Notes under the pieces: model-generated
Database searches by the model: none
What the model was told of the DNA's origin: nothing
Seen by the model: the letters and a program-made list of their open reading frames with translations, nothing else
Translations under genes and position numbers: made by a program
Shown: piece after piece, positions 9,450 to 40,371 of the stretch
How the letters are laid out: every line of letters begins with the position of its first letter
Numbering within the stretch: the stretch's first letter is position 1
Origin: Methanomicrobiales archaeon
GTDB taxonomy: Archaea > Halobacteriota > Methanomicrobia > Methanomicrobiales > JACTUA01
Length of the DNA: 64,000 nucleotides
Direction: 5' to 3'
Assembly (NCBI GenBank): GCA_015660865.1
Contig: JACTUA010000002.1
Coordinates: forward strand, 248,548 to 312,547

Positions 9450-9473
9450 TGGAATATGAAAGAATGGATCCTT

Positions 9474-10697: not shown

Positions 10698-10701
10698 TGG
10701 C

Positions 10702-11886: not shown

Positions 11887-12533
11887 TCCTCGGTGTAACC
11901 CCCGCCAGGGGGGGGTCCAGGGGGATCCGGAGGAAGAACCTCCGCCCCGTCTGCGGAAAGCCCCTCATCAGCTGGACCATCGAGGCCGCCCTGAGGTCCA
12001 CCCTCCTTGACCACTACCTCGTTTCCACAGAGGACCCCGAGATCGCCGGGGTGGCGAGAGGCGCAGGAGCGGAGGTTCTCCCCCGTCCCGGCGAGCTTGC
12101 AACGGACGATACGACCACCCTCTCGGTGCTCCAGCACGTCCTTTCCCACGTCCCTGCGTCCACCGTGGTCCTCCTCCAGTGCACGTCTCCGGTCCGGGAC
12201 GAGGGCCTCATCGACCGCTGCATCGGGAGGTTCAGGGAATCGGGGGCCGATTCCCTTGCAACCGGCTTCTGGTGCAGCCTCTTTGCATGGGGGAGCTACT
12301 CGGCGAGGCGGCAGGATCTCACGCCCTTCTTCCATGATGACGGGAACATTTATGTCATCAGGGCCGATCTCATCCGCAGGGGTGAGTTGTGGGGGCAGCG
12401 GATGGAGCCGTTTCCGGTGAGCAGGGACCAGACCTTTGAGATCGATGACGAGTTCGATCTCTGGCTGAACGAGAAGATCCTGGAACGCCGTTTCCAGTGC
12501 GGGCAGGGTGGAGGTTCCCCGTGGAGCGGATGA
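11883..12533 (+). CDS. neuA: CMP-nonulosonate cytidylyltransferase (NeuA-like)
   Basis: 216 residues. Activates a 2-keto-3-deoxy acid sugar with CTP. The nucleotide motif GVTPARGGSRGIRRKN is at the N-terminus, LLQCTSPVR is the mid-domain signature, and the end DQTFEIDDEFDLWL is the metal and sugar-binding segment of CMP-sialate synthetases. Lies between the KdnA-like gene and neuB with four-base overlaps on both sides. Whether it accepts Neu5Ac, a legionaminate or an amino-nonulosonate is open. Confidence 0.85.
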   Translation: MILGVTPARGGSRGIRRKNLRPVCGKPLISWTIEAALRSTLLDHYLVSTEDPEIAGVARGAGAEVLPRPGELATDDTTTLSVLQHVLSHVPASTVVLLQCTSPVRDEGLIDRCIGRFRESGADSLATGFWCSLFAWGSYSARRQDLTPFFHDDGNIYVIRADLIRRGELWGQRMEPFPVSRDQTFEIDDEFDLWLNEKILERRFQCGQGGGSPWSG

Positions 12534-13576
12534 GGATGAGGATCGGGGACAGGGAAGTTGGCGACGGGACCCCCTGCTTCATCATCGCGGAAGCCGGGGT
12601 GAACCACAACGGCGATCCGAACCTTGCGAGGAGACTCATCGACATCGCAAAAAGTGCGGGCGCTGACGCAATAAAATTCCAGACCTTCACCGCCGATGCA
12701 CTCGTGACGAGAGATGCGGAGAAAGCCGGGTACCAGAAGGCGACCACAGGTGGAAGAGAGTCACAGTATGACATGATACAGGATCTTGAGCTCACCCACG
12801 AAGACTTCAGGAAGCTCTCGGACTATGCTCGGGAGCGCGGGATCGTGTTCCTCTCATCGCCCTTTGATGAAGAGAGCGCGGATTTTCTCGAGACCCTCGG
12901 TATAACAGCATATAAAATCCCCTCGGGGGAGATCACGAACCTCCCCTTCCTCGAGCATATCGCAAAGAAAGGGAGGCCGGTCATTTTATCGACAGGAATG
13001 GCAGACCTCCGCGAGATCTCGGAGGCCCTCGATGCCCTGAGGTCATCGGGACAGGAAGAGATCATCCTCCTCCATTGCGTGACCAGCTATCCGGCCCCCT
13101 TCGAATCCCTGAACCTGAGAGCAATAGAGACCCTGAGGGATACCTTTCACCTCCCGGTCGGGTTCTCGGATCATGCGGAAGGGATCACCTCGGCCCTGAT
13201 CGCACGCGCTCTCGGGGCCTGTATCATCGAGAAGCACTTCACCCTGTCCCGCGATCTCCCGGGTCCCGATCACAAGGCCTCCCTCGAACCGGGGGAGCTG
13301 CAGTCGATGGTGGAGATGATCCACCGCGTTGACGGGGCCCTCGGGACCGGGATCAAGGAGCCGGGGTGCGAGGAACTGGAGATGCGGAGGATTGCCCGGA
13401 AAAGCCTCGTCGCTATGATGGACATTCCGCGGGGAACCATGATAACGGGGGAGATGATCGGGATGAAACGCCCGGGAACCGGGATTGAACCCAAAGAATT
13501 CACCTCGGTCATCGGGAGAAGAGCTGCGAGGACCATCCGGAAAGACGAACTCATCGGCTGGCACATGATACAATGA
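12530..13576 (+). CDS. neuB: N-acetylneuraminate/nonulosonate synthase
   Basis: 348 residues. Condenses phosphoenolpyruvate with an N-acylmannosamine-type sugar. TIM barrel: IIAEAGVNHNGD, IKFQTFTADALV, IPSGEITNLPF, FSDHAEG, EKHFTLSRDLPGPDHKASLEP are all family motifs. The C-terminal 60 residues form the antifreeze-like SAF domain (ARKSLVAMMDIPRGTMIT). ATG 12530 overlaps the neuA stop (ATGA); the frame is open 11 codons earlier but within neuA. Followed by neuC with another ATGA. Confidence 0.93.
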   Translation: MRMRIGDREVGDGTPCFIIAEAGVNHNGDPNLARRLIDIAKSAGADAIKFQTFTADALVTRDAEKAGYQKATTGGRESQYDMIQDLELTHEDFRKLSDYARERGIVFLSSPFDEESADFLETLGITAYKIPSGEITNLPFLEHIAKKGRPVILSTGMADLREISEALDALRSSGQEEIILLHCVTSYPAPFESLNLRAIETLRDTFHLPVGFSDHAEGITSALIARALGACIIEKHFTLSRDLPGPDHKASLEPGELQSMVEMIHRVDGALGTGIKEPGCEELEMRRIARKSLVAMMDIPRGTMITGEMIGMKRPGTGIEPKEFTSVIGRRAARTIRKDELIGWHMIQ

Positions 13577-14718
13577 AGCGAAAGATCCTCTCTGTCACAG
13601 GCACCCGTGCAGATTACGGCCTGATGCATGCCGTGTACCGGAACATAACGGAACACCCTTCCCTCTCCCTGGAGCTGGTCATCACCGGTATGCATCTCCT
13701 GGATGAATTCGGCTCCACCGCTGATGAGATAAAAAAGGATGGCTTCAGGTACCATATCATCGAATCAACCCCCCGGGATGATACGAAGGAGGCAATGGCC
13801 CTCTTCATCGGGGATTTCATCCAGAAATTCACCCTTTTTTTGAGGGGCACCCGCCCGGATATCCTCCTCCTGGTCGGAGATCGGGGGGAGATGCTCGGGG
13901 CAGCGATAGCAGGGGTCTACCTGGGCATCCCCGTTGCCCATATCCATGGCGGAGAGATCACTTCGACCGTGGATGAGTATGCACGGCATGCCATCACGAA
14001 GCTCTCAAACATTCACTTTGCGGCGACACCGGAGAACGGCGATCGTATCGTCAGGATGGGCGAGGATCCCTCGAGGGTGTTTGTGGTCGGGGCACCCGGC
14101 CTCGACGAGATCCTCCATGAGCCCCTCCTCCCCGCCGAAGTTATCGTCCGGAAGTATCCCCTGCGCCCCGGCGAGCAGCTCCTCCTCGTGATCCAGCACC
14201 CGGTTTCTCTCGACGCCGATAAGTCGGCATCCCAGATGGAGGAGACCCTGAAGGCCATCGCGGCCCTCTCCATGAGGACCATCCTCATCTACCCGAATGC
14301 AGACGCGGGCGGGCGGGCAATGATAGAGGCAATCCGCCGGTTCGAGCGGCTGCCGTTCCTCACTGTCTCTCAAAACATCCCCCACCGGGAGTACCTGAGC
14401 CTCCTCTCAGTGGCTTCCGTTCTCATCGGGAATTCGAGCAGCGGGATCATCGAGGCCCCCTCCTTCGGCCTGCCTGTAGTAAATATCGGCACCCGGCAGC
14501 AGGGGCGTCAGAGGGCCGGGAACGTCATCGATGTGGACCATGATCATCTCGCCATCAGGAAGGCAGTAGAAAAGGCCCTCTTTGATGAGGAATTCAGGAG
14601 AGCCGTCCGGACATGCAGGAATCCCTACGGGGACGGAAGGGCAGGCGGGCGGATCGCATCCACCCTCGCCTCGGTGAAGATCGACAGGCAGCTGCTCGGG
14701 AAGAAGATCACGTATTGA
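13573..14718 (+). CDS. neuC: UDP-N-acetylglucosamine 2-epimerase, hydrolysing
   Basis: 381-residue GT-B-fold enzyme that converts UDP-GlcNAc (or a diamino analogue) to the free 2-epimer and UDP, supplying NeuB. Motifs: VTGTRADYGLM at the N-terminus, VGDRGEML, HIHGGEIT, GNSSSGIIEAPSFG and NIGTRQQGR. With neuB and neuA this completes UDP-GlcNAc to CMP-sialic-acid-type sugar. I see no PglF/LegB-type 4,6-dehydratase in the window, so a Neu5Ac-like product is more likely than legionaminate. Last gene of the coupled run; a 127-base gap follows. Confidence 0.92.
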   Translation: MKRKILSVTGTRADYGLMHAVYRNITEHPSLSLELVITGMHLLDEFGSTADEIKKDGFRYHIIESTPRDDTKEAMALFIGDFIQKFTLFLRGTRPDILLLVGDRGEMLGAAIAGVYLGIPVAHIHGGEITSTVDEYARHAITKLSNIHFAATPENGDRIVRMGEDPSRVFVVGAPGLDEILHEPLLPAEVIVRKYPLRPGEQLLLVIQHPVSLDADKSASQMEETLKAIAALSMRTILIYPNADAGGRAMIEAIRRFERLPFLTVSQNIPHREYLSLLSVASVLIGNSSSGIIEAPSFGLPVVNIGTRQQGRQRAGNVIDVDHDHLAIRKAVEKALFDEEFRRAVRTCRNPYGDGRAGGRIASTLASVKIDRQLLGKKITY

Positions 14719-24373: not shown

Positions 24374-26248
24374 ATGGCCAGGATAGAGATACTTGACTAT
24401 ACCACAGCCATTGAATATGTCTCTCAATTCCTTCCTGAGGCGGAGACACCTGATGATTGCGAATGGATTTTTCTGGGAGACGACTACAGGAAACTGAAGT
24501 ACCTCCGCAAACGATTCCAGGATCGTCTCCGGGAGAAGGATATTGCTTCGGAATTCCATTCCGCAACCGAAGATCTGAGAATCCCCTTTGTCGAGTATCT
24601 CTCCTCTTATGCCCGGGATCATCCAGGATTTCGGCTGTGTTCCAGTTTTTATGAACGGATACCGTTTCAATCCCACGTCTTCCAGAACCTGTGCTACCTC
24701 GCGAGCGCTACAAATGCCATTGAACAGAGCATGGCAGAACGTATCCTCGTTATCTGTCAGGATGAGGCCGTTGCCCTGGATCTTGCACAAACCCTGGAGG
24801 ATACTTCCCTCCATAAAATCGGGATCCGAACAGAGGGAAAGTTCACCGTTCCTCTGGGATGGTGGCGTGCTGGCGTGAAAACGCTCCTCGATGTGATCCC
24901 TTATGCAACCTTCCAAGCAATCACCCTGTTGCTTCGCCATCTCAGCTCCTCATGGATCTTCTGGCGCGAGGATCTCCCCAGCAAGAACATCAGGGACTGC
25001 ATCCTGATCCATACATGGGTTGCGGAATCCACCTGCTCCGCGAAGGGTTACAGGGAGCTGTACTGTGGTGATCTCCAGGATCGACTCATGGAGAGGGGGC
25101 ACACCTGTATCCTGCTCCCCCACCTCCCCCCTGGGAAGAATCTCTCCCTTGCCCCGTACCTGGGCTGTATCAGAGCCCTGAAGAACTCCCGGAGGCGATT
25201 CCTTCCTGAAGAATTATTCCTGGGTCTCCCTGAGATCCTCTCCATCTGGCTCCGGAGCATCCTGAACTATCCGAGGCCCGGGATCCACCTGATCCGGAAT
25301 CTCTCCTTCGGCGGGTGTGTATATCTCCAGGACCTTGAGGACTGGATGGGCCTCTCCATCTGCTATCCCCTCGCGATCCATTCCCTCGCCAGGGGATTGA
25401 GGAGGAGGGAGATCCATCCCGATATCCTCGTCCTCCTCCACGAAAACTACAGCTGGGAGAAGGCGTTCATCCACGGGCTCCGAGCCTCGTTCCCCTCGAT
25501 GAGAATCCACGGGTATCTTCACACGACCCCGTCGAAGTATTTCCTCATGCACCTGCTTCCCGAATCCTCACCCGACTTTACCTATCTCCCCGATCTCATC
25601 ATTACGAACGGACCAAGGACATCGGAGTTCCTCCTCGCGGGAAACTACCCGAGGGAACGGGTGATCACCGGGGGAGCGCTGAGATACGTGTCCCTTACGG
25701 AGAGGGCGTCCGGATACCCACCCGGGGATGGCGAGGTCCCCCGGACGATCCTCGTCGCGCTTCCCATCGATCTCGACGAGTCTGTGGAGATTCTCGACAA
25801 GGTGTCCGAAGCCCTTGCCCGCAGCCCCGGCCTCGTCGTCTCATGCAAGCCTCACCCCTTCCTCGCTCTCGACAGGCTCTTCCGGGCCGTGGACCCCGAG
25901 GTCTTTCAACGGATCCTCCTCACCCAGGATCCCCTCGATTCGCTCCTGGCAGGCACAGGGGTACTCGTGTACTCGACATCTTCGAGCTGCATGGATGCCC
26001 TCGCGATGGGGGTACCCGTCCTCAAGATTGTATCAGAGCGGCGGCTCGATATCGATCCGGTTGGAGACTGCCGTGGCAGAACCCCGTACGTGCGGGCGGC
26101 GCGAAACCCCGAGGAGATCGCCTCCGAGGTCCGGAACCTTGCCATGAGGACGTTTACCCCCGAGGAGAGGAGGCAACTCGCAGAGATCGTGGCCGGTATC
26201 TTTGCCCGGGTCACCGAGGAGACCTACGCTGCCTTTACACGGCGGTAA
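24374..26248 (+). CDS. Large GT-B-like surface carbohydrate biosynthesis protein
   Basis: 624 residues. The C-terminal 250 look like a GT-B donor half: HGYLHTTPSKYF, DLIITNGPRTSEFLLAGNYP, VVSCKPHPFLALDRLF, and SLLAGTGVLVYSTSSSCMDALAMGVPVLKI, a typical donor-site Ser/Thr-rich loop and helix. The N-terminal 370 are unassigned. It recalls a large family seen in Leptospira O-antigen loci (TIGR04326-like, from memory). The frame is open 133 codons upstream inside the methyltransferase; ATG 24374, six bases after that gene, is chosen. Function beyond glycan transfer cannot be stated. Confidence 0.55.
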   Translation: MARIEILDYTTAIEYVSQFLPEAETPDDCEWIFLGDDYRKLKYLRKRFQDRLREKDIASEFHSATEDLRIPFVEYLSSYARDHPGFRLCSSFYERIPFQSHVFQNLCYLASATNAIEQSMAERILVICQDEAVALDLAQTLEDTSLHKIGIRTEGKFTVPLGWWRAGVKTLLDVIPYATFQAITLLLRHLSSSWIFWREDLPSKNIRDCILIHTWVAESTCSAKGYRELYCGDLQDRLMERGHTCILLPHLPPGKNLSLAPYLGCIRALKNSRRRFLPEELFLGLPEILSIWLRSILNYPRPGIHLIRNLSFGGCVYLQDLEDWMGLSICYPLAIHSLARGLRRREIHPDILVLLHENYSWEKAFIHGLRASFPSMRIHGYLHTTPSKYFLMHLLPESSPDFTYLPDLIITNGPRTSEFLLAGNYPRERVITGGALRYVSLTERASGYPPGDGEVPRTILVALPIDLDESVEILDKVSEALARSPGLVVSCKPHPFLALDRLFRAVDPEVFQRILLTQDPLDSLLAGTGVLVYSTSSSCMDALAMGVPVLKIVSERRLDIDPVGDCRGRTPYVRAARNPEEIASEVRNLAMRTFTPEERRQLAEIVAGIFARVTEETYAAFTRR

Positions 26249-26438: not shown

Positions 26439-27875
26439 ATGGGAAAGGTCGAGATTGAGGTACACCGCCATGGCCTGATGATGCTTGGCTCTTCCGCAGG
26501 GATAACCTTCGTCGGGGTTCTTGCGACCATGTTCTATGCCCACTGGCTTGGCGCAGAGATCCTCGGGGCCTACTTTCTCTTCCTCTCGTACTACAATATC
26601 CTGGCCCTCCTGTCAGACCTCGGGTTCAACACCGCTGCACTGAAACGCATCAGCGAAGGGATCCAGCCGGATGCCTACTTTACCCTGAGTTTCCTCCTCC
26701 GTTTGATCCTCTACGGCCTCGTCAGTATCCTCCTTGTGGCCTTCAGGGATCGCTTTGTGGACCTCAACAATGCCGGACTGTTCTGGATTCTCATCGCGGT
26801 ATTCGGGATCGGGACACTCGCCTCCTGCCTCGCTACGGCCATCGGAGGCGCAAACCGCCTGGGCCTCGCGGCGTCCATGAGCATCCTCGACAATATCACC
26901 CGGATAGGGGTTCAATTCACGGGTGTTCTGCTCGGATTCAAGGTCTTCGGGCTCGTAGGGGGAATTATTGCAGGTCTCTCGGTCGAGATCGTCATCGCCC
27001 TGAGATATCTCGATTTCCGCCCCGTTCAGGTTCGCCTCGAACATCTCCGGAGCCTGATCCATTATTCCCTGTGGGCGTTCCTCGCCTCCTCCGGCGTCGC
27101 TGTTATGGACAACATCAATGTGATCCTCATCGGCTATTTCATGGCATCATCCGATGTCGGGATCTATGGCATCTGCTGGACCTTCTCATTCTTCGGGCTC
27201 TTTGTCACAACCGCCCTCTGCAATACCCTCTGGGTGAAGGTCAGCCGGTGGAGCGCCACCGGGGATAGGGAAACAATTGCCCTTGCCCTCTCCCGGGCAT
27301 GTTCCTATGCCCTGCTCTTCACCATCCCCATCCTCGTCGGTGGGATCATCCTGGGGGAGGATCTCCTCTACTACCTCTTTTCAGCAAGTTTCGCCGCCGG
27401 GTTTGGTGCGCTGGTCCTTCTTCTCTTCGCAAGAACCGTGCAGTCGGTATACCAGCTCTTCTACACCTTCCTCATGGCCATGGATGCAGCGAGGGACGCG
27501 TTCTTTGTTGTTCTGGTGGGAAGCATCGTGAACATCACCCTCTCCGTGGTATTGATCCCGGTGCTGGGCCTTGTCGGTGCAGCGGCCGGAACGCTGGTGA
27601 CGGCCAGTATCAGCCTCGTCATAGCCTTCAGGAAACTCCGCCGGCACACACCGGTCAGCCTTGACTCCTTCGCAATCATGCGCTTTCTGGGGGCCGCCGG
27701 GATCATGGGGGCCGTTCTCATCCTCGGCAAAGTTCTGGTATCGATTCATGCCTTCTGGAGACCGGTTCTTCTCGTCCTGCTCGGGGCTGGCGTGTATTTC
27801 GGTATCCTCCTCCTCATCGACCGCCGGCTGCGTGATGATGCCCGCCGGACACTCATGATCCGCTGGCGGGGATGA
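26439..27875 (+). CDS. Polysaccharide flippase (MOP/Wzx-like)
   Basis: 478-residue multispan membrane protein with about 12-14 hydrophobic segments from residue 12 onward (SSAGITFVGVLATMFYAHWLG, and similar). The N-terminal segment plus ALGAYFLFLSYYNILALLSDLG-like sequence fits oligosaccharide flippases of the MOP superfamily. It would move lipid-linked glycan across the membrane. No Wzy-type polymerase is evident nearby. It lies in the centre of the glycan region and is transcribed from its own TATA box. Confidence 0.85.
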   Translation: MGKVEIEVHRHGLMMLGSSAGITFVGVLATMFYAHWLGAEILGAYFLFLSYYNILALLSDLGFNTAALKRISEGIQPDAYFTLSFLLRLILYGLVSILLVAFRDRFVDLNNAGLFWILIAVFGIGTLASCLATAIGGANRLGLAASMSILDNITRIGVQFTGVLLGFKVFGLVGGIIAGLSVEIVIALRYLDFRPVQVRLEHLRSLIHYSLWAFLASSGVAVMDNINVILIGYFMASSDVGIYGICWTFSFFGLFVTTALCNTLWVKVSRWSATGDRETIALALSRACSYALLFTIPILVGGIILGEDLLYYLFSASFAAGFGALVLLLFARTVQSVYQLFYTFLMAMDAARDAFFVVLVGSIVNITLSVVLIPVLGLVGAAAGTLVTASISLVIAFRKLRRHTPVSLDSFAIMRFLGAAGIMGAVLILGKVLVSIHAFWRPVLLVLLGAGVYFGILLLIDRRLRDDARRTLMIRWRG

Positions 27876-27970: not shown

Positions 27971-29233
27971 GTGATAAATTGGGCGTCGTCCATATTCTCG
28001 CTTGTCATGCCAGATTCCTTTATAAAACGGGTCTCCCGATTGCACCGGCAGGGGATGCTTGCCTATGCAATAAAATTGGAAATGATACCTTACCTGATCG
28101 GGATAAGGTACTTATTTTTCCCTGACCCGTTCGGTCGGCAGCCGGGCCTTGAGATCACCCTTCATTGCCCTGATTACACACGACCGCCAGATGACAGGAA
28201 TGAGATGGAGCTTGTTGAGAGGATCTTCTCCTCCTATAAGGCCATGAAGAGGGACCAGAAGAGAGCCCAGGATAGGTACCTTCCTTCGTCTATGTGGAGT
28301 GACAAGCTCTCCAGCGGATACTCCTCCCTGATGAAGGGCCTGCAATCAGACGATCCCTCCCAATTCCACTTCTTTCTTGCTAACTTCGGCGCATGGAAGG
28401 AGGATCTCGGCATCGAGAATACCAGCTTTCTCAGGAAGAATATGCGATCATGGCCGACGAGGGCTTATCTGAAGCATGTCGTCTTCTACCAGCAGCTGAG
28501 GAGATGGCATTGGTTCTATAACCAGAGAAAACCGACGGAATCCCTTTCTTATCCGGAGTTCGGGAATCAGGCAGGCGCATATCTCGGTGAGAACTTCATC
28601 GGGGTTGGATCCTTTTTCAATGAGATCTATGGCTCAATCCTCCACGGGCTCATAGAGGACAGGGAGCGTCCCGTTGTCGCAGATCTGGGTGCCGGGTATG
28701 GCAAACTGGCATACTTCACCCTGCGCACGGCGAAAAGGTTCTGCTTCATTGACTTCGACTTACCCGAGACCCTGTGCCTCTGCGCCTATTACCTCATGAA
28801 GGCATGGCCTGACAAGAGGGCGCTCCTCTATGGCGAAGAGGAGTATTCACCGGGAGCACATGAAAAGTACGATCTCATCTTCATGCCCAACTACGAGATT
28901 GAAAAGGCCGGGCAGGACACCATCGACCTGTTCATGAATATCACAAGCCTCGGGGAGATGGACCGGAGTGCCGTGATCAATTACATCCATCATATTACAC
29001 GGTCCACACACTACTTCTTCCATATGAACCATGACAATTATCCGTCGCATTTCTCCCGGGATATACAGGGGATGCTTGGATATGAGTACCCGGTTCCCAG
29101 GGACAGGTTCAAGTTGCTCTTCCGGTACCTGGATGCAGGCCATCTCCTTTACCATGGGTTCATCGATTTTAAGACTGATATATTCCTGTACCTTTATGAA
29201 AAGCAGGAGGAACGCAACAGCAAGGAATCGTGA
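27971..29233 (+). CDS. Putative sugar O-methyltransferase (NanM-like)
   Basis: 420 residues. Mid-protein PVVADLGAGYGKLAYFTLR is a SAM motif I, and CFIDFDLPETLCLCAYYL plus YDLIFMPNYEIE follow in order. The overall pattern matches the putative sugar O-methyltransferase family I recall as TIGR04371. The first codon is GTG 27971; ATG 28007 (MPDSFIKRVSRLHRQG) is an alternative. By hand count the row 28981-29040 is 37% GC and 28501-28560 is 45%, versus 72% at 1201-1260, so the gene looks acquired. No clear partner; separate from the operon at 29453. Confidence 0.65.
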   Translation: MINWASSIFSLVMPDSFIKRVSRLHRQGMLAYAIKLEMIPYLIGIRYLFFPDPFGRQPGLEITLHCPDYTRPPDDRNEMELVERIFSSYKAMKRDQKRAQDRYLPSSMWSDKLSSGYSSLMKGLQSDDPSQFHFFLANFGAWKEDLGIENTSFLRKNMRSWPTRAYLKHVVFYQQLRRWHWFYNQRKPTESLSYPEFGNQAGAYLGENFIGVGSFFNEIYGSILHGLIEDRERPVVADLGAGYGKLAYFTLRTAKRFCFIDFDLPETLCLCAYYLMKAWPDKRALLYGEEEYSPGAHEKYDLIFMPNYEIEKAGQDTIDLFMNITSLGEMDRSAVINYIHHITRSTHYFFHMNHDNYPSHFSRDIQGMLGYEYPVPRDRFKLLFRYLDAGHLLYHGFIDFKTDIFLYLYEKQEERNSKES

Positions 29234-29452: not shown

Positions 29453-30385
29453 ATGACAGAATGCACGATCGCCCTCACGATTCGCTCCTTTGACCATGAC
29501 GGACCAGCGATGGCGAAGCTGCGGAAACGGTGCAGGGTAGGATATATCAACAGATCCGGCAGGCGCCTGACGGAAGGGGACCTCTCCCGGGTCCTCGACG
29601 GAGTCGAGGGGGTGATTGCCGGGACCGAGCCCTTCAGCCGGAAGGTCATGGACACCTGTCCCCTGCTGCAGATCATCTCCCGGGTCGGGACGGGCATCGA
29701 TTCCATCGACATGGAGGCGGCCCAGACCCGGGGCATCCGGGTCTTCACCACCCCTGAACCGCCTGTACAGGCCGTTGCCGAACATACCCTGGCCCTCCTC
29801 CTCTCGGTCTTAAAGGGCATACCACTGAGGAATGAGATGATCCGGAAGGGGGAGGAAGCAATGCAGCCGGGAACCCTCCTTGCGGGGAAAACCGTGGGAA
29901 TCATCGGTTTCGGCAGGATCGGCCAGACAGTTGCAGGGATGCTCGGGCCTTTCGGCTGCCGGATCCTTGCCTATGATCCTTACAGAAAGGGGCCGGATCA
30001 AGCAGGGGTGGAGTTTCCCGCTTCTCTCGAAGATCTCGCGGGAGAAGCCGATATCCTCACGCTTCACGCCTCTGCCCAGCCGGGGGGGCGGCCCATCATC
30101 GACAGGCACCTCCTCTCCCGCTGCCGGAGGGGAGTGGTGATCCTCAACACCGCCCGTGGGTCCCTCATCGACGAGGATGCCCTCGTCCATGCCCTCGAGG
30201 AGGGTACCGTGGCCGCTGCCGGCCTCGATGTTTTTCCCAGCGAACCCTATAGAGGACCCCTCCTTCGCTTCCCCCAGGTCATCGCGACCCCCCATGTGGC
30301 ATCGAACACCACTGAGACCCGGCGGGAGATGGAGATGGAGGCGGTGGAGAACCTGCTCCGGGGGTTCGAAGGAGGGCGTGAATGA
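29453..30385 (+). CDS. D-2-hydroxyacid dehydrogenase (SerA-like)
   Basis: 310 residues. NAD motif GKTVGIIGFGRIGQTVAGML near residue 144-163, catalytic Arg in LNTARGSLIDEDAL, and catalytic His in IATPHVASNTT, all of the D-isomer-specific 2-hydroxyacid dehydrogenase family. No ACT domain, unlike serine-pathway SerA. It heads an eight-gene operon ending at 36030 and is overlapped by the next gene (ATGA). Inferred role: oxidation or reduction of a hydroxyacid precursor for the activated sugar acid made by this operon. Confidence 0.8.
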   Translation: MTECTIALTIRSFDHDGPAMAKLRKRCRVGYINRSGRRLTEGDLSRVLDGVEGVIAGTEPFSRKVMDTCPLLQIISRVGTGIDSIDMEAAQTRGIRVFTTPEPPVQAVAEHTLALLLSVLKGIPLRNEMIRKGEEAMQPGTLLAGKTVGIIGFGRIGQTVAGMLGPFGCRILAYDPYRKGPDQAGVEFPASLEDLAGEADILTLHASAQPGGRPIIDRHLLSRCRRGVVILNTARGSLIDEDALVHALEEGTVAAAGLDVFPSEPYRGPLLRFPQVIATPHVASNTTETRREMEMEAVENLLRGFEGGRE

Positions 30386-31302
30386 GGGCGCTCGTTACCG
30401 GGGGATCCGGATTCCTTGGACACCATATCATCCGCGAGCTCCTGAAGCAGGGCATAGAGACCACAGGGTATGACATCTTGCCTCCCCGGCAGAGGATGAG
30501 AGATAGCTCACGGGAGAAACTCCTGAACTTCCGCAGGGGAGACCTTCTCGATCAAAAAGGCCTCGTCGAATCCATGGAGGGATGCGATCTCGTCTTCCAT
30601 ACCGCGGCTATCGCCGATATCGAGGAGGCCCGCACGGTTCCCGCGAGGACCATGGAGGTGAACGTGGTGGGAACGGCGAATTGCCTCGAAGCAGCCCGGA
30701 GGTGCGGCGTGAAGCGGTTCCTCCTCGCAAGCTCGGTCTATACAGCAGGGAACCGGGGTTCCTTCTACCGGATCTCGAAGGTCGCCGGCGAGTCCCTCTG
30801 CCGGTCCTTCCATGAGGAGTTCAGCCTCGGGTACACCATCCTCAAGTATGGAAGCCTCTATGGCCGTGAAGCCAACCACTGGAACTTCATCTACAATGTC
30901 TGCAGGGAACTCCTCACGAAGGGGGAGTTCCATTACACCTCCACCCCGGAGGCGGTCCGGGAGTACATCCACATAAGCGACGCATGCCGGGAGACGGTCA
31001 GGATCGCCCTGGATCCCCAATTTGCCAACAGGACTGTCCTGATCACCGGACACCAGCGGATGAAGATGGGGGAGTTCTTCGAGATGGTCCGGGAGATCCT
31101 CGGCCGGGAGATCCGCATCACGTACGCCACCGATGAGAACCGTCTCCATTACGTCATGACCCCCTATGCCTTTGAGACAGACATTCCGGTAAGGGTAAAC
31201 CTCTCCCAGTATGTCGATATCAGCGAAGGTATCCTGGACTGCCTGCGGGAGGTTCAGCGGGAGCTGGACAGGGAGAAGGGTGTGAAAGGCCGGGAGGACT
31301 GA
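30382..31302 (+). CDS. NAD-dependent sugar epimerase/dehydratase
   Basis: 306-residue extended SDR. ALVTGGSGFLGHHII at the N-terminus, then FHTAAIADIEEA, LLASSVYTAG and YRISK (YxxxK). The reading FYRISKVAGES is typical of nucleotide-sugar epimerases. Overlaps the dehydrogenase by four bases, and the radical SAM gene starts five bases after its stop. Substrate not identified. Confidence 0.78.
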   Translation: MRALVTGGSGFLGHHIIRELLKQGIETTGYDILPPRQRMRDSSREKLLNFRRGDLLDQKGLVESMEGCDLVFHTAAIADIEEARTVPARTMEVNVVGTANCLEAARRCGVKRFLLASSVYTAGNRGSFYRISKVAGESLCRSFHEEFSLGYTILKYGSLYGREANHWNFIYNVCRELLTKGEFHYTSTPEAVREYIHISDACRETVRIALDPQFANRTVLITGHQRMKMGEFFEMVREILGREIRITYATDENRLHYVMTPYAFETDIPVRVNLSQYVDISEGILDCLREVQRELDREKGVKGRED

Positions 31303-31306
31303 CACG

Positions 31307-32284
31307 ATGGAGGTGGACGCGAACTTCCACACCATCGGCGGGAGGAGCGTGGTGGAGAGAGAGGACGCCCGCTTCCGGGAATACCGGCGGAAGTGGAAAG
31401 AGTGGCCGGAGACCTTTCATGCGGGGGAGTTCCCCCTCCACCTGGACCTGGAGACGAACAGCGTCTGCAACCTCCAGTGCCCGTTCTGCGCCACCACCCA
31501 TAACCGGTACCGGGCCGGTTTTATTGAAGAGGCGATCTGGAAGAAGGTCCTCGACGAGGGCGGGCGGAATGAACTCTTCTCCCTGAAGTTCACCTTCCGG
31601 GGAGAACCCCTCCTCCACCCGGACCTCCCCAAGATGGTGAAGTACGCGAAGGATGCGGGGATCCTTGACGTGTACTTCAACACGAACGCCGTCAGGCTCA
31701 CGGAGCCCGTGATCCGGGCCCTCATCGACGCGGGCCTTGACAGGATATCCATCTCCTTCGAAGGCTTCGAGAAGTCCGTCTACGAGAGCTACCGGGTCGG
31801 GGCGAGGTTCGAGCAGGTTGTCCGGAATATCGAGGCCCTGAAACGGGTGAGGGAGGAGGTCGGGTCGCCCAGGCCCCTTGTTCGGATCCAGACTGTGCTT
31901 GTTCCCGAGCTTGCAGGCAGGGAGAAGGAGTATTCCGCCTTCTGGACCCCCCGGGCTGACGAAGTCGCATATCTCGATATGAAGGATGAGGACGGGAACC
32001 CTGACCACCGGGGTATCGTTGCAGACTGGGCATGCCCCCAGCTCTGGCAGAGGATGACCATCACCTGGGACGGGAAGATCCTGCCCTGCGTCCATGACAT
32101 CTACGAGTGGATGAGATTCGGGAATATCCTCGATATCCCTATCCGGGATGCATGGAAGAGTGCACAGGAGGAGGACTACCGGAACCGGCACAGGACTGGA
32201 CATGCCCACGAGATCCCGGCCTGTGACCGGTGCCCCCTCCGGGAGAACGAGATCCGGAAGCTCTCCAGGTGTGGTGGACCGTGA
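31307..32284 (+). CDS. Radical SAM enzyme with SPASM-type C-terminus
   Basis: 325 residues. CNLQCPFC (Cys 54, 58, 61) binds the SAM-cleaving [4Fe-4S] cluster. FRGEPLLHPDL and SISFEGFEKSVYES are the usual core strands. The C-terminal cysteines (ACPQLW, PCVHD, CDRCPL, RCGGP) form a SPASM or twitch cluster domain. It sits between an epimerase and a cytidylyltransferase and overlaps the latter by GTGA. Radical chemistry on a sugar or on a glycan-linked carboxylate is likely; which reaction cannot be read. Confidence 0.85.
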   Translation: MEVDANFHTIGGRSVVEREDARFREYRRKWKEWPETFHAGEFPLHLDLETNSVCNLQCPFCATTHNRYRAGFIEEAIWKKVLDEGGRNELFSLKFTFRGEPLLHPDLPKMVKYAKDAGILDVYFNTNAVRLTEPVIRALIDAGLDRISISFEGFEKSVYESYRVGARFEQVVRNIEALKRVREEVGSPRPLVRIQTVLVPELAGREKEYSAFWTPRADEVAYLDMKDEDGNPDHRGIVADWACPQLWQRMTITWDGKILPCVHDIYEWMRFGNILDIPIRDAWKSAQEEDYRNRHRTGHAHEIPACDRCPLRENEIRKLSRCGGP

Positions 32285-33024
32285 TCCCTGCTCTCCTCAT
32301 CGGAAGGGAGGGAAGCCTCGGGTTTCCCGGGAAGAATGTCTATCCCCTCCTGGGGCGGGCCTTGATGGAGTACCCGCTCCTCGCAGCGAAGGGATCCAGG
32401 AACGTCGATGCCCTCTTTGTTTCCACAGACTCGCCCAGGATCGGGGAGATCAGCGAGGGGTATGGGGCCCGGATCATCCATCGCCCGCCCGTGCTCTGCA
32501 CGGCCGAAGCCCTTGGAGAGGATGTCTTTGTCCATGGGTACCGGGAGATACGGGCCGGGCTCAGGGAGGGGGATTCTATCGAGATGCTCGTCCTCCTGAT
32601 GTGCAACGCACCCACCATCACCGCCGACCTCATAGATGAGGGTATCGAGGCGCTCCGTGCGCACCCGGAGTATGACTCGGCGGTGACCGTATCCAGGTAC
32701 AACATGTACAGCCCTCTCAGGGCAAGGAGGATCGGCAGGGATGGACTCCTCCATCCCTTCGTCCCCATCGAGACCTTCGGGGATCCCTATTCCCTGAACT
32801 GCGACCGGGATTCCCAGGGGGATGTTTGGTTCGCCGACATGGGCGCATCCATCGTCCGGCCCGGGAACCTCGAGCACCTGGAGGAGGGGCTTCTCCCCCA
32901 GAAATGGATGGGCCGGCATATCTATCCCCTGAAGCAATGGGGAGGCCTTGATATCGATTACGAGTGGCAGATTCCCCAGGCCAGGTTCTGGCTCGGGAGG
33001 CACGGCTATCGTGAGGTGAACTGA
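32281..33024 (+). CDS. Second cytidylyltransferase (acylneuraminate-CMP type)
   Basis: 247 residues from GTG 32281, which overlaps the radical SAM stop as GTGA. LLIGREGSLGFPGKN is the nucleotide loop; VSTDSPRIGEISEGYGARII and LVLLMCNAPTIT follow as in CMP-Neu/Kdo synthetases, and DIDYEWQIPQARF ends the domain like IDxxxDL. It differs from the NeuA at 11883 in loop and length, so it likely activates a different acid. The operon lacks a NeuB partner of its own. Confidence 0.75.
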   Translation: MIPALLIGREGSLGFPGKNVYPLLGRALMEYPLLAAKGSRNVDALFVSTDSPRIGEISEGYGARIIHRPPVLCTAEALGEDVFVHGYREIRAGLREGDSIEMLVLLMCNAPTITADLIDEGIEALRAHPEYDSAVTVSRYNMYSPLRARRIGRDGLLHPFVPIETFGDPYSLNCDRDSQGDVWFADMGASIVRPGNLEHLEEGLLPQKWMGRHIYPLKQWGGLDIDYEWQIPQARFWLGRHGYREVN

Positions 33025-33026
33025 CC

Positions 33027-33776
33027 ATGTTTGAGGCTATCCGGGGGAAGCGGGCTCTCATTACCGGTGCGGGATCGGGGATGGGGGCCTGCATGGCAGA
33101 ACTCTTTGCCGATCATGGGGCCATCGTCGGTATTCATTACAATAAAAGCGAGGCAGGTGCGAGGAAGGTTCAGGGGATGATCCAGGAGAAGGGCGGGGAA
33201 GCGATCCTGCTCCGGGCTGATCTCATGGATCCCGGAGCGTGTTCTCACCTCGTGCCCCGCTTCACCCAGGAGGCCGGCGGGATTGAGGTTCTCGTAAACA
33301 ATGCAGGGGGTGTCCAGGGCCACCCGCACTTCCTGGAGATGGACCGGGAATCATGGGACCGGACCATCAGCCTCGATCTCACGGCACCCTTCTTCCTTGC
33401 CCGATCTGCCTTCGGGTACATGATGGACCATGGGGGAGGACGGATTATCAGTATCAGCTCCATCGCCGCGAAATACGGGGGCTCTGCGGAGACGATCCAT
33501 TACGGCGCAGCGAAAGCAGGTGTCGAGGCCGTGACAAAAACCCTTGCCAGGGCAGGGGCCCGGTACGGGATCCTGGTGAATGCCGTCCAGCCGGGTGTCA
33601 TCGGTACCGATTTCCACCGGAAGATCGGGAGGGCTTCCCTGGAAGAACGGGTGAAGCAGATCCCCCTTGGAAGGGCCGGGACGCCCCTCGATGTGGCGCG
33701 GCTCTGCCTCTTCCTCGCTTCCGAGGGCGGGGATTTCATCACCGGGCAGGTCTACGGGGTGACGGGAGGAGATTGA
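33027..33776 (+). CDS. Short-chain dehydrogenase/reductase (FabG-like)
   Basis: 249-residue classical SDR. ITGAGSGMGACMAE is the TGxxxGxG motif, LVNNAGG the NNAG motif, SISSIAA carries Ser and YGAAK the catalytic Tyr/Lys. C-terminal FITGQVYGVTGGD is standard. Probably reduces or oxidises a keto group of the sugar acid. Two-base gap from the cytidylyltransferase. Confidence 0.85.
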   Translation: MFEAIRGKRALITGAGSGMGACMAELFADHGAIVGIHYNKSEAGARKVQGMIQEKGGEAILLRADLMDPGACSHLVPRFTQEAGGIEVLVNNAGGVQGHPHFLEMDRESWDRTISLDLTAPFFLARSAFGYMMDHGGGRIISISSIAAKYGGSAETIHYGAAKAGVEAVTKTLARAGARYGILVNAVQPGVIGTDFHRKIGRASLEERVKQIPLGRAGTPLDVARLCLFLASEGGDFITGQVYGVTGGD

Positions 33777-33813
33777 CATATCTCCCTCAACCGCCGAACC
33801 GGATTCCACCCCC

Positions 33814-34671
33814 TTGAGAGAGGACACGGGATCCCCCCCTTCCCCTACCCAGAGGATTCTCTCCTGGGCGCGGAGGTTTCTCGCGGGAGTCCTCGAACGG
33901 AATGCCCTGGAAAACATGGAGGCCAAACTGGGTGGTCTTGATCCCCGGATCCGGGCACTGGTCACCGGTGAGGATGAACGCTCCCATTACGGGGACATGG
34001 ATCTGGAGGAGATCGGGCTGCAGCACATAGCCCGAAGCTTCACCATCGACAGGATCCGGTTCATCAGGGATACCCTTCCCCGGGGGATCCGGGGCACCGT
34101 TGTAGACCTGGGTGATACGAACGGGATCTTTCTCCGGTCCATGGGGCAGGAAGGGATTGGGGTGAACATCAGCGACCCTGCGATCAGATCCCTTCGGGCC
34201 CGCGGCCTGGAGACCCTGAAGGCAGATATTGAGTTCCTCCCGTTCAGGGACAATTCCATCGAGCTTGTGCTCCTCTTCGAGACCCTGGAGCATGTTCCGA
34301 ACCCGATCAAGGTGCTCCGGGAGATCGGCCGGGTCTGTTCACGCTCCCTGGTCCTCTCCATTCCCCTCGTCGGAAAGACCACCATTCACGGGGGCGGGTA
34401 TGATCCGGAACGTCCAGCCGAACAGCACCATATCTTCGAATTCTCAGTCCCGGACTTCAGGGAGATCCTGACCCACACCCCCTTTGTACTCGGGAGGGAC
34501 CAGATTGCCACGGTGCTCGGCGAGAAAGGCAGGATTCTTGACCGGCTTGTCATAGCCCTGTGGTCGATCTTCCGGGAGAAGGATATGTTCTGCGGATGCT
34601 TCCGGAGATTCTACATCTGCCATCTCGTCCGGAAGGATCGGGCTTTGGGAGATCCCGAGCAGGGAGGCTGA
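33814..34671 (+). CDS. SAM-dependent methyltransferase (class I)
   Basis: 285 residues if read from TTG 33814; an ATG at 33916 gives MEAKLGGLDPR. VVDLGDTNGIFLRSMGQEG is motif I (atypical: Asp-Thr where Gly-x-Gly is common), FRDNSIELVLLFETLEHVPNP motif IV, and SLVLSIPLVG follows. The end is rich in Cys and Arg (DMFCGCFRRFYICHLVRK). The weak start and odd motif I leave the N-terminus uncertain. Lies inside the operon between SDR and HAD genes. Confidence 0.7.
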   Translation: MREDTGSPPSPTQRILSWARRFLAGVLERNALENMEAKLGGLDPRIRALVTGEDERSHYGDMDLEEIGLQHIARSFTIDRIRFIRDTLPRGIRGTVVDLGDTNGIFLRSMGQEGIGVNISDPAIRSLRARGLETLKADIEFLPFRDNSIELVLLFETLEHVPNPIKVLREIGRVCSRSLVLSIPLVGKTTIHGGGYDPERPAEQHHIFEFSVPDFREILTHTPFVLGRDQIATVLGEKGRILDRLVIALWSIFREKDMFCGCFRRFYICHLVRKDRALGDPEQGG

Positions 34672-34678
34672 TCGCTCA

Positions 34679-35344
34679 ATGAAACCGAGGCAGGTATCCG
34701 TTCTCATCCTCGATTTCGACGGTGTCATCCTGGAATCGGTGGGGGTGAAGACCGAGGCATTCCGGAAGCTCTTCTCGTTCCGTCCCGATCATGTCGATGA
34801 AATTGTGGATTACCACCGGAGGAATACGGGAGTCTCCAGGTTCGATAAGTTCCGGCACATCTACAGGGAGATCCTGAAGGAGGCCCTCTCCGATGAGCAG
34901 TTCAACCTTCTTTCGGAACGGTATGCAGGACTCGTGGTGGAGGGCGTGGTTCACTCACCCTTCGTCCATGGTGCCCAGGAGTTCCTCGGCGCCTTCTCCC
35001 GGCACCTCCCCATCTTCGTGGTCTCGGCGACCCCCGAGGAGGAGCTCCATTCCATCATCAGGTGGAGAGGACTGGAAGGCCACTTCAGGGGGATCTACGG
35101 GGCACCCACCACGAAGACAGATGCCATCAGGGAGATCAGGGAAAGAACCGGCTCGGCCCGGGAGGAGACCCTCTTTGTGGGAGACGCCGTGAATGACCTC
35201 AGAGCCGCGAAGGTCTGCGGCGTGCGGTTTGTTGGGAGGCGCCCACCCGAAGATCCGGATCGATTCAGGACCGAGGATGGTGTCGAGGCCGTGGTCTCGG
35301 ATCTTGAGGAACTGTCCAAAATCCTGGAAGGAGAGGCATGCTGA
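34679..35344 (+). CDS. HAD-family phosphatase
   Basis: 221 residues. Motif I LILDFDGVI (nucleophile Asp), motif II VVSATP, motif III Lys in TKTDAIREI, motif IV FVGDAVNDLRAA: a complete haloacid-dehalogenase set with a helical cap at about residues 18-85. Likely removes a phosphate from the sugar acid before CMP activation, the role HAD phosphatases play in nonulosonate and Kdo routes. Overlapped by the next gene by seven bases. Confidence 0.85.
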   Translation: MKPRQVSVLILDFDGVILESVGVKTEAFRKLFSFRPDHVDEIVDYHRRNTGVSRFDKFRHIYREILKEALSDEQFNLLSERYAGLVVEGVVHSPFVHGAQEFLGAFSRHLPIFVVSATPEEELHSIIRWRGLEGHFRGIYGAPTTKTDAIREIRERTGSAREETLFVGDAVNDLRAAKVCGVRFVGRRPPEDPDRFRTEDGVEAVVSDLEELSKILEGEAC

Positions 35345-36030
35345 TCCGGATATCCCATCCCCTGGAGCAGGGATTGCCCCTCTACCCGGGAACTCCCTCC
35401 CTGTCGATCATTCCTTATCGCACCTTCGAGAAAGGGGACGCCTCCTCGTCAAGCACCATCACCTTCCATACCCATTCGGGAACCCATATTGATGCGCCCC
35501 GACATTTCTGCCCCGGCGGGAGTACCATCGCGGATCTCCTCAGAGCCGAGAGCATCTTCACCCACGTAACGATTCTCCCGCTCCCCATGGCCGGGGATAC
35601 CTGCATCGCGGCAAGGGACCTTGAACCTTTCCTCCCGCAGATCCAGGAGGGCCAGGCCATCCTCATCCGCACCGGAGATTGCCTGCGGAGGGAACGGGAT
35701 CCGGGAGGCTATGGAGCAGTTCATCCCTGGATCCACCCCGGTATCGCCGATTTCCTCAGGGAGCATGCCCCCTCCCTCCGGCTCTTCGGTCTGGATGCCA
35801 TCTCCATCTCATCCCCTGCCCATCGCGAGGAGGGGAGGGAATGCCACCGGGCCTTCCTCTGCGGTTCTCCCCCAATCCTCCTCATGGAAGATATCGATCT
35901 CTCGGATGAGCGGCTGACCGGGAGCGGCTGGTCGCTCCATATCTATCCATGGCTCCTTGAGTCCCTGGATGGAATACCGGTCACGGCTATCGCTGAAAGG
36001 CCGGAAGGGGAGGATGTTCCGGTCACATGA
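35338..36030 (+). CDS. Cyclase family metal hydrolase (kynurenine-formamidase-like)
   Basis: 230 residues of the cyclase family. HSGTHIDAPRHF (His 46 and 50, Asp 52, His 56) is the metal-binding signature. Members include kynurenine formamidase, isatin hydrolase and lactonase-like enzymes. No tryptophan-degradation genes are near, so an amidase, deformylase or lactonase step on the operon's sugar product is more likely. Overlaps the HAD gene; last of the operon. Confidence 0.82.
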   Translation: MLIRISHPLEQGLPLYPGTPSLSIIPYRTFEKGDASSSSTITFHTHSGTHIDAPRHFCPGGSTIADLLRAESIFTHVTILPLPMAGDTCIAARDLEPFLPQIQEGQAILIRTGDCLRRERDPGGYGAVHPWIHPGIADFLREHAPSLRLFGLDAISISSPAHREEGRECHRAFLCGSPPILLMEDIDLSDERLTGSGWSLHIYPWLLESLDGIPVTAIAERPEGEDVPVT

Positions 36031-38511: not shown

Positions 38512-40371
38512 CTAGGCGAGATCAAGCCCGAAGCAGGACGCCCATATCTCGAGCGCAAAGAGGTTCCAGGCGATCAGGGCCGGGCGGTTGGATCCCGCCC
38601 GCTCAAAGCCCTGGAGAACCTTCGTGAAGTTGCCGGAGGGGAGGGCCTTCCTGGCGAAGGTGCTGTCATAGAGCGCCTGCGAGATCGCCTCCCGGAGATC
38701 TCCACGGACCCATGTGAGGTAAGGGACGCCAAACCCCTGCTTGGGCCGTTCCAGGATCGAACGGGGGAGGAGGTCACGCACCACCCGCCTCCAGATATAC
38801 TTCTCCACGCCCCCCCGGATCTTCAGGGATGAGGGAATGCGGAAGGCGAACTCGACCAGATCCCTGTCCAGGGTGGGAACCCGCTCCTCCACGGAGTGTG
38901 CCATCGTTGCCTTGTCGGCCTTCATCAGGTAGAGGTCCGGCAGGTGGTTCAAGCAGTCCAGGGCCAGGATGCGGTTCAGGGGGTCCTGGAACCCAAGGGG
39001 CATGCGAGGCTGGGTGCGGGCATCGGCGCAGCCCCCATTCCCCAGCCACCGGAGTTCGTCATCCGTGATGCCGGTGATCCTCCAGGCGTAGGTCTGTGCA
39101 GCCTCAAGGGATTCCTGCCCCAGGTAATGCATGTACACGGGGATCCGGTTGTGGAAGGGATCCCCGCTCCAGGGCGCGAGGGAGATGGCCCGGTCCAGGC
39201 CCCTGCGGAGGAATCGGGGCAGGGAGAACCACGGGCTCCACCTCACGCCATGGCGGTAGCTCGGGTATCCCCCGAAGAGTTCGTCGGAACCCTCTCCTGC
39301 CAGGACCACCTTCACGTTCTTCCGCGCCTCCCGGGCGAGGAAGAAGTTGGCAATGACCGCCGCGTCCCCGATCGGTTCGTCAAAGTGCCAGGTGATGGAT
39401 GGTAACTCCCTCAGCACGTCCCCGGGCCCGATATCCACCTCATGGTGGATCGTCCCCAGGTGCCGGGAGACCTCCTCTGCGAACGCGAACTCTGAGACGG
39501 CCGGGCCGAAGCCGGCGGTGAAGGTATGGAACCCGTAGTCAACCTCCCTGCATGCGATGGCGGTGATGGCACTCGAGTCAATCCCCCCTGAGAGGAAAGC
39601 CCCGATAGGAACATCGGCGATCATACGCAGGCGGGTGGCTTCCTCGAGGATCGCCCGGAGCCGGGACGCAAGGGCGGCCTCATCCCCCTCCTCCCGCCCT
39701 TCCCTGAGGGTCCAGTACCTGGAGAGGGAGAGGGCCCCGGTCTCCGGGGAGAAGACCATGATGCATGCCGGGGGCAGCCGGTGGATACCGGCGATAAGGG
39801 TCCGGTCCCCCGGGATGTACTGGTTGCGCAGGTAGCCGCAGAGAGCCTCCCGATCCAGGACTTTGTCTATGCCCAGGGATGAAAAAGCGGCAACGATCGC
39901 CTTGATCTCTGAGGCGAAGAGGAGAGTGGTGCCATCATGGTAGTAGTAGAGGGGTTTCTTCCCGATAGGGTCCCGGGCCAGGATCAGCCTCTTCTCCCGG
40001 GCATCCCAGAGGGCAAAGGCGTACATCCCCCGCAGTCGGTCAAGGAAAGGGAGCCCGTACTCCTCATAGGCATGGACCAGGACCTCGGTGTCGGTCCGTG
40101 AGGAGAAGGTGTGGCGGGAGAGATCTGCCCTGAGCCCCTGATAATTGTAGACCTCACCGTTGTAGGTGATCCAGATCTCTCCGTTCTCGTTCGAGAGGGG
40201 CTGGCGGCCCTGTGGGGAGAGATCGATGATGGAGAGGCGGGCATGACCGAGGGAGACATATCCGTCTGACCACGTTCCCCTGTCGTCAGGTCCCCGGTGC
40301 CGGAGCACATCAACCATGGAAGCCAGGAGGCCGTCGTCAGAAAATCCGGTGAACCCGCAGATGCCGCACAT
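38512..40371 (-). CDS. asnB: Asparagine synthase-type glutamine amidotransferase
   Basis: 619 residues. MCGICGFTGF gives the N-terminal nucleophile Cys2; the glutaminase domain ends near residue 200, and FLSGGIDSSAITA is the PP-loop of the ATP-dependent amidation domain. Could be the cell's asparagine synthetase, but AsnB relatives in glycan loci (WbpS type) turn uronic acids into uronamides, and a uronate-forming dehydrogenase is the next gene. Both readings are open. Confidence 0.85.
   Translation of the reverse strand: MCGICGFTGFSDDGLLASMVDVLRHRGPDDRGTWSDGYVSLGHARLSIIDLSPQGRQPLSNENGEIWITYNGEVYNYQGLRADLSRHTFSSRTDTEVLVHAYEEYGLPFLDRLRGMYAFALWDAREKRLILARDPIGKKPLYYYHDGTTLLFASEIKAIVAAFSSLGIDKVLDREALCGYLRNQYIPGDRTLIAGIHRLPPACIMVFSPETGALSLSRYWTLREGREEGDEAALASRLRAILEEATRLRMIADVPIGAFLSGGIDSSAITAIACREVDYGFHTFTAGFGPAVSEFAFAEEVSRHLGTIHHEVDIGPGDVLRELPSITWHFDEPIGDAAVIANFFLAREARKNVKVVLAGEGSDELFGGYPSYRHGVRWSPWFSLPRFLRRGLDRAISLAPWSGDPFHNRIPVYMHYLGQESLEAAQTYAWRITGITDDELRWLGNGGCADARTQPRMPLGFQDPLNRILALDCLNHLPDLYLMKADKATMAHSVEERVPTLDRDLVEFAFRIPSSLKIRGGVEKYIWRRVVRDLLPRSILERPKQGFGVPYLTWVRGDLREAISQALYDSTFARKALPSGNFTKVLQGFERAGSNRPALIAWNLFALEIWASCFGLDLA

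Follow-up and report, generated by a model that had tools for sequence, protein, structure and literature searches.

How does a gene cluster that activates a sugar acid with CMP obtain the sugar itself, when it holds no synthase of the NeuB or KdsA type? The question is raised by an eight-gene operon at 29453-36030 on the forward strand of the 64,000-nt stretch of Methanomicrobiales DNA analysed here (the window, whose numbering is used throughout). To our knowledge, CMP-activated sugars are few, namely the sialic-type nonulosonic acids and Kdo (3-deoxy-D-manno-octulosonic acid) with its relatives, and nearly all known examples begin with a phosphoenolpyruvate-dependent condensation. The eight genes very probably serve to make an acidic surface sugar linked to CMP. 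On balance, we favour the reading that this product is a keto-sugar destined for a surface polysaccharide and formed by a different route, in which a sugar is oxidised and the resulting ketone is then reduced or aminated.

The operon encodes a hydroxyacid dehydrogenase (HADH), an epimerase/dehydratase-family protein (NDE), a radical SAM protein (rSAM), a cytidylyltransferase (CT), a short-chain dehydrogenase/reductase (SDR), a methyltransferase, a HAD-type hydrolase (HAD) and a cyclase-like metal hydrolase (CYC). In the open reading frame (ORF) listing of the window, all eight ORFs lie on the forward strand, where an earlier note made from the sequence alone had placed them, with junctions of -4, +4, -4, +2, +37, +7 and -7 bp in order (largest gap 37 bp) and an A+T-rich stretch immediately 5' of 29453. 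Pfam and NCBIfam models confirmed the domain identities of all eight proteins (Table 1), none of which scores high enough for an NCBIfam equivalog that would define a pathway. Family alignments revealed that the catalytic residues of HADH, NDE, SDR, HAD, CYC and CT are kept, among them R235, E264 and H281 of HADH (kept in 93% or more of the family rows), S117/Y129/K133 of NDE, and D12, D14, K146 and D169 of HAD. CYC retains the metal motif HSGTHIDAPRHF together with H170/E184; its HxGTHxDxPxHF motif (H46-F57) is kept as in PF04199 metal hydrolases, and its best PDB match is a kynurenine formamidase, although it falls short of the arylformamidase equivalog level (TIGR03035, 47.7 bits versus a cut-off of 223).

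The cytidylyltransferase was used as bait across a collection in which each species is represented by one genome, and 80 loci with relatives of 53-75% identity were returned; neighbouring genes were counted by profile HMMs with score thresholds of our own setting, and many loci are cut by contig ends. According to the record titles, the archaeal hosts belong to Methanomicrobiales, Methanolobus and Methanoperedens, and the bacterial hosts to Nitrospirae, Omnitrophota, Elusimicrobia, Chloroflexi/Dehalococcoidales, NC10, Deltaproteobacteria, alpha- and betaproteobacteria, Acidobacteria, Planctomycetes, Verrucomicrobia, Acidimicrobiia and candidate phyla. No relative was found in a plasmid collection at E 1e-20. 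CT carries the PF02348 domain (38.6 bits versus a cut-off of 22.6) and conserves the nucleotide-binding and Asp motifs (R9, G11-S12, G14, P16, K18-N19 and D224/D226). Its listed ORF extends back to 32230, but the homologues start at MIPALLIGREGS; hence, the GTG at 32281 was taken as the start. The best PDB match is NeuA. Nevertheless, the protein scores below the PseF equivalog cut-off (58.7 bits versus 205.7) and the KdsB-family cut-offs (19-38 bits versus 193-255), and it shares only ~31% identity over ~181 residues with the NeuA-type cytidylyltransferase of another operon in the window. By these sequence comparisons, CT founds its own family and is no duplicate of NeuA; had it been one, the earlier proposal would have been undone.

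The same gene families recur around CT in these loci: HADH in 55 of the 80, NDE in 54, rSAM in 41 and a diverged form (rSAM2) in 12, SDR in 29, HAD in 39, CYC in 15 and relatives of the methyltransferase in 17; HAD and CYC are adjacent in all 13 loci that contain both. Because of this recurrence, the set of families in the operon is far beyond chance. The view that the operon is a single conserved unit devoted to a sugar acid activated with CMP is upheld. The earlier note would have been refuted by a gene order conserved nowhere; the order was found in other Methanomicrobia, in L022, L023, L028 and L112, where HADH-NDE is followed by rSAM, by rSAM and a GalE-like SDR (UGE), or by a methyltransferase, a Gfo/Idh/MocA-family dehydrogenase (Gfo) and UGE, and then by CT, an SDR or an opposite-strand aminotransferase, and HAD-CYC; L031 has the same order except that HAD-CYC is divergent. 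A TIM-barrel protein akin to 5-keto-gluconate epimerase is also recurrent. In addition, a B12-binding radical SAM family of ~500 aa lies beside CT in 22 of the 80 loci (for example, L040:3248-4759) and likewise occurs in L104, L105 and L127-L129, some of which are the aldolase loci described below; it may be a C-methyltransferase or a dehydratase for the sugar. The suggested parallel with Leptospira O-antigen loci held as a family link only (TIGR04326, O_ant_LIC13510): the cassette was not found there, and a paper on the Leptospira rfb locus mentions none of its enzymes by name. Literature searches on radical SAM enzymes with CMP-sugars or ulosonic acids, BtrN with polysaccharide, TIGR04326, and 2-keto-3-deoxy acids with cytidylyltransferase returned no description of the cassette. 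It is real, widely conserved and, so far as the searched literature goes, undescribed.

For rSAM, the best PDB sequence match, across both domains, is BtrN. All seven cysteines of rSAM are invariant in 32 sequences, namely C54/C58/C61 of the CX3CX2C motif and C243/C261/C306/C309, and the latter align gap-free with the four auxiliary cysteines of BtrN. The predicted structural model (pLDDT 92) also has BtrN at rank 1 in a PDB fold search (E 2.3e-14, TM 0.57/0.74 with 0.74 on the target, rmsd 5.4), followed by BlsE, SuiB and DesII; the twitch dehydrogenase SpeY is listed too. The reaction of BtrN is the two-electron oxidation of a hydroxyl group on an aminocyclitol (PMC9012708). Since rSAM is similar to BtrN in its sequence, in the spacing of its cysteines and in its fold, and since it is replaced in other loci by NAD-type dehydrogenases, we infer that it likewise oxidises a secondary alcohol.

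This replacement was analysed in the 43 CT loci whose flanks extend for 7 kb or more in each direction. The presumed oxidant is rSAM or rSAM2 in 31 loci and Gfo in nine, and no locus has both (Fisher 4e-7, which ignores relatedness). The presumed fate of the ketone divides in the same manner: a HisC-like aminotransferase is present in 22 loci and a FabG-like SDR in 19, with both in one (Fisher 4e-8, likewise). The choice of fate is independent of the oxidant, the aminotransferase to SDR counts being 17/18 with rSAM, 6/5 with rSAM2 and 8/4 with Gfo. Each of the two swaps requires at least 16 changes on the CT tree, so the exclusion pattern does not reflect one inherited state. Both exclusions are explained if a hydroxyl is oxidised to a ketone, which is then either reduced or aminated. 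In the nearest relatives of the window, three genes (L022:7116-9980, L028:7020-9972 and L112:7221-10100) stand exactly between NDE and CT, at the position of rSAM in the window: one for a methyltransferase that bears a cysteine motif near its N-terminus, one for a Gfo dehydrogenase and one for a GalE-like SDR. The Gfo proteins fall within PF01408 and are similar to inositol and sugar 3-dehydrogenases. Locus L129 (G474) instead encodes a zinc-dependent MDR-type dehydrogenase (MDR) akin to L-threonine 3-dehydrogenase and scyllo-inosose 3-dehydrogenase; the rest of the set is present, and a cytidylyltransferase of the KdsB type takes the place of the window type. A comparable exchange has a precedent in antibiotic pathways related to that of BtrN, where the NAD/zinc dehydrogenase NeoA performs the BtrN step.

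If rSAM is an oxidant, the source of the carbon skeleton has to be sought elsewhere. The earlier note correctly stated that no NeuB/KdsA-type synthase is encoded at 29453-36030, and suggested that the skeleton may come from the hydroxyacid dehydrogenase and the radical SAM enzyme. Such an unrecognised condensation, with rSAM forming or rearranging carbon bonds, would account for the lack of a NeuB, KdsA or HpcH gene in the operon, of PF03328 in the carrier genomes of the order, and of NeuB and PF00793 in the Methanoregula genome G142. However, the enzyme is BtrN-like and is swapped for NAD-type dehydrogenases, which form no C-C bonds, a few CT loci have neither rSAM nor such a dehydrogenase, and HADH is part of a module shared with HpcH/HpaI aldolase loci; this proposal is therefore not supported, and we consider a hidden condensation very improbable.

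The only NeuB of the genome (12497-13576) is encoded in a separate operon of the window, and no DAHP/KdsA-type synthase (PF00793) was matched in the genome, control genomes being positive. CT might use the product of this NeuB, the eight genes merely tailoring a nonulosonic acid. NeuB is present somewhere in seven of the eight archaeal carriers tested and here lies in the same locus, as this would require; yet the NeuB operon has its own cytidylyltransferase (11883-12533), the distant relative of CT compared above, a NeuB-like cluster accompanies only 15 of the 80 CT loci, and G142 (96% complete) contains the cassette and lacks both NeuB and a KdsA-type synthase. Dependence on NeuB thus appears improbable, if slightly less so than a hidden condensation. 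Independence from NeuB-type condensation is plausible because of G142, and a preformed sugar is the simplest source of the skeleton, although an assembly gap in G142 is possible. The NeuB operon itself (9456-14718, forward strand) encodes an iron-dependent alcohol dehydrogenase (Fe-ADH), a DegT aminotransferase, the cytidylyltransferase, NeuB and NeuC. The Fe-ADH and aminotransferase beside NeuB recall KdnB and KdnA of 8-amino-Kdo (Kdo8N) synthesis in Shewanella, KdnB being a Kdo 8-oxidase (PMC5125639), which suggests a sialic-type acid whose amino group is placed by oxidation and transamination.

The remaining genes, HADH, NDE, HAD and CYC, form a module with a wider distribution. Among 199 genomes of the window's order, NDE occurs in all six with a strong CT match and in five of the 193 others (6e-9). 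The NDE genomes of the order without CT, together with more in the phylum, mostly have HADH-NDE beside an HpcH/HpaI aldolase and another cytidylyltransferase, which is of KdsB grade in L103-L105 and, on a separate contig (L133), in G151, and PseF-like in L130 and L132 (tested) and in L127, L128 and L131 (by position). PF03328 (HpcH/HpaI) proteins are absent from all six of the order's CT genomes, and a search of the 80 CT loci likewise turned up no HpcH aldolase; hence, the aldolase is not hidden nearby. With the aldolase as query, 11 genomes were found, none of them a CT genome. These NDE neighbourhoods, gathered free of the CT bait, cover archaea only. HADH-NDE-HAD-CYC and the glycosyltransferase-like protein GT620 (see below) are common to both kinds of loci, in which an aldolase with another cytidylyltransferase and CT with an oxidant and an SDR or aminotransferase are alternatives. 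This sharing supports a common CMP-keto-acid theme.

The aldolase loci deserve attention in their own right. In L103, L104, L105, L110, L127, L128 and L130-L133, all from methanogens, an HpcH/HpaI aldolase is paired with a KdsB- or PseF-like cytidylyltransferase, mostly beside HADH-NDE, HAD, CYC or the GT-B protein, and an aldolase-based CMP-ulosonate route in archaea is possible. HAD-CYC is also found as a lone adjacent pair, with the rest of the cassette absent, in L108, L109 and L114 (family f4, window's order), so these two genes also have a function independent of it. CYC was dropped as a marker gene since it is present in 49 of the 199 genomes.

The mobility of the module would also fit two pathways in one island, in which CT, rSAM and SDR lead to a CMP-activated product (CMP-X) and HADH-NDE-HAD-CYC to another building block of the same polysaccharide, such as a further sugar acid or a hydroxy-acid. 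In L067 and L072, the four module genes lie separately or on the opposite strand; in other methanogens, they are found together with an HpcH aldolase and other cytidylyltransferases; and HAD-CYC can stand alone. Against this, module and CT are together in most long-flank loci (NDE in 37/43, HADH in 35/43) and in 6/6 genomes of the order, and in Methanomicrobia HADH-NDE lies directly 5' of rSAM, or of methyltransferase-Gfo-UGE, and CT in one close-packed run. We regard two separate pathways as rather unlikely, though the most serious of the alternatives.

For the favoured oxidise-then-reduce-or-aminate route, the following scheme may be proposed. First, rSAM would abstract a hydrogen atom at a secondary carbinol of its substrate, a sugar or a sugar acid. 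With the second electron handed on to the auxiliary cluster held by four cysteines, a ketone would form, and neither oxygen nor NAD would be needed. The FabG-like SDR would then reduce this ketone, for a net epimerisation or as part of a deoxygenation; in relatives, the aminotransferase would place an amine on it. HAD would subsequently take off a phosphate and the methyltransferase would methylate, CT would activate a 2-keto acid at its anomeric hydroxyl to form CMP-X, and GT620 would transfer X. The reactions, their order and the nature of X as a 2-keto acid are what we infer from this gene set. HADH, NDE, HAD and CYC would act as a supply module common with the aldolase-based loci, possibly with NDE oxidising C1 to a lactone, CYC opening the lactone and HADH converting the 2-hydroxy to the 2-keto group. 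The role of this module is the weakest part of the scheme. Our first version, with NDE as the C1 dehydrogenase, CYC as the lactonase and HADH as the 2-keto former, was weakened by the presence of the same four genes in aldolase loci and is retained as one possibility only.

Several points weigh against this route. A role in C1/C2 oxidation would be superfluous beside an aldolase, making the assignment of HADH, NDE and CYC doubtful; NDE and HADH are each missing from several long-flank loci, and the module lies on the other strand in the two loci named above. Gfo occurs mostly with UGE (12/12) and the methyltransferase (10/12), and thus may be the sign of a separate branch instead of simply standing in for rSAM. 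The GT-B fold of GT620 is common to 2-epimerases and is no proof of the use of a CMP donor. Finally, the loci were gathered with CT as bait under thresholds of our choosing, the Fisher values disregard kinship among the genomes, and all enzyme functions of this family set are assigned by comparison rather than by assay.

The candidate transferase GT620 is encoded upstream of the operon, and its homologues are found in the aldolase loci as well as in ~48 of the 80 loci with CT; it belongs to the system. It has no Pfam match and is a distant relative of TIGR04326, the O_ant_LIC13510 family (67 bits for the window protein and 238 for one locus member, versus a cut-off of 250). The predicted fold is GT-B, with 2-epimerases and CalG-type glycosyltransferases as the nearest structures, and E357 and H494 are invariant and P495 nearly so. 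GT620 is the best candidate for transfer of the product. A Wzx-type flippase gene adjoins it, probably as part of the same polysaccharide locus. Two further genes were observed in the surroundings: just 5' of the operon, 27971-29233 (forward strand) encodes a putative sugar O-methyltransferase (TIGR04371, 86 bits versus a cut-off of 44), and in the middle of the polysaccharide locus, 38512-40371 (reverse strand) encodes an asparagine-synthase-like amidotransferase, which may amidate a uronic acid.

Table 1. Genes of the operon and of the adjoining upstream region, in window coordinates.
Feature	Coordinates	Strand	Remarks
GT620, 624-aa GT-B-fold protein, probable product transferase	24374-26248	+	Outside the coordinates of the earlier note
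Wzx-type flippase	26439-27875	+	PF13440/PF01943; adjoins GT620
HADH, D-2-hydroxyacid dehydrogenase, PGDH-like	29453-30385	+	PF02826/PF00389
NDE, NAD-dependent epimerase/dehydratase-family extended SDR	30382-31302	+	PF01370; 4-bp overlap with HADH
rSAM, radical SAM with SPASM/twitch domain, BtrN-like	31307-32284	+	PF04055+PF13186
CT, cytidylyltransferase, founder of its own family	32281-33024	+	PF02348; GTG start
SDR, FabG-like reductase	33027-33776	+	PF13561; HisC-like aminotransferase takes its place elsewhere
Methyltransferase, optional part	33814-34671	+	PF08241; TTG start unsure
HAD, phosphatase-like hydrolase	34679-35344	+	PF13419
CYC, cyclase/kynurenine-formamidase-like metal hydrolase	35338-36030	+	PF04199

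Beyond the window, the cassette may tentatively represent a wide new class of CMP-keto-sugar acids in archaea and bacteria, a generalisation less secure than the route itself, in which a preformed sugar is oxidised without a NeuB/KdsA-type condensation, rSAM is interchangeable with Gfo and zinc dehydrogenases, and the ketone is reduced or aminated. The conserved CT, the glycan-type neighbourhoods and the swappable genes for oxidation and for reduction or amination would then point to an unrecognised branch of glycan chemistry, in which one set of cytidylyltransferase and transferase serves a combinatorial sugar family comparable to the nonulosonic acids. BtrN-type radical SAM dehydrogenation is known from antibiotic biosynthesis, and the proposed route would bring it into the biosynthesis of cell-surface glycans. 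Methanolobus psychrotolerans, whose locus L029 holds rSAM-CT-SDR-HADH-NDE-HAD-CYC, is one named isolate that would allow direct tests.

By the features tested, the cassette is outside the NeuB/NeuA and Kdo pathways. It shares with the nonulosonic acid pathways (NeuB/NeuA, PseI/PseF and LegI/LegF) a PF02348 cytidylyltransferase distantly similar to NeuA and PseF, a HAD protein, an epimerase-like SDR and the setting in a polysaccharide locus; unlike them, it has no NeuB-type synthase or 2-epimerase, its cytidylyltransferase is separate and below the PseF cut-off, and it contains an oxidation by rSAM or Gfo/MDR together with an SDR or a HisC-like aminotransferase. The Kdo and Kdo8N pathways (KdsA-D-C-B; KdnB then KdnA) offer a parallel in the oxidation of a hydroxyl followed by amination, in CMP activation and in the KdsB-type cytidylyltransferase of L129. 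However, the window genome has no KdsA, the oxidant of the cassette is rSAM or Gfo/MDR rather than an Fe-ADH, and its aminotransferase is HisC-like rather than of the DegT type, with SDR as an alternative. The closest likeness of rSAM is to BtrN, from the 2-deoxystreptamine pathway of butirosin, and to SpeY, with which it shares the twitch radical SAM fold, the cysteine pattern and, in relatives, an aminotransferase partner; in contrast to these enzymes, to which it is only ~20% identical, rSAM is found in archaeal and bacterial surface-glycan loci and is tied to CMP activation.

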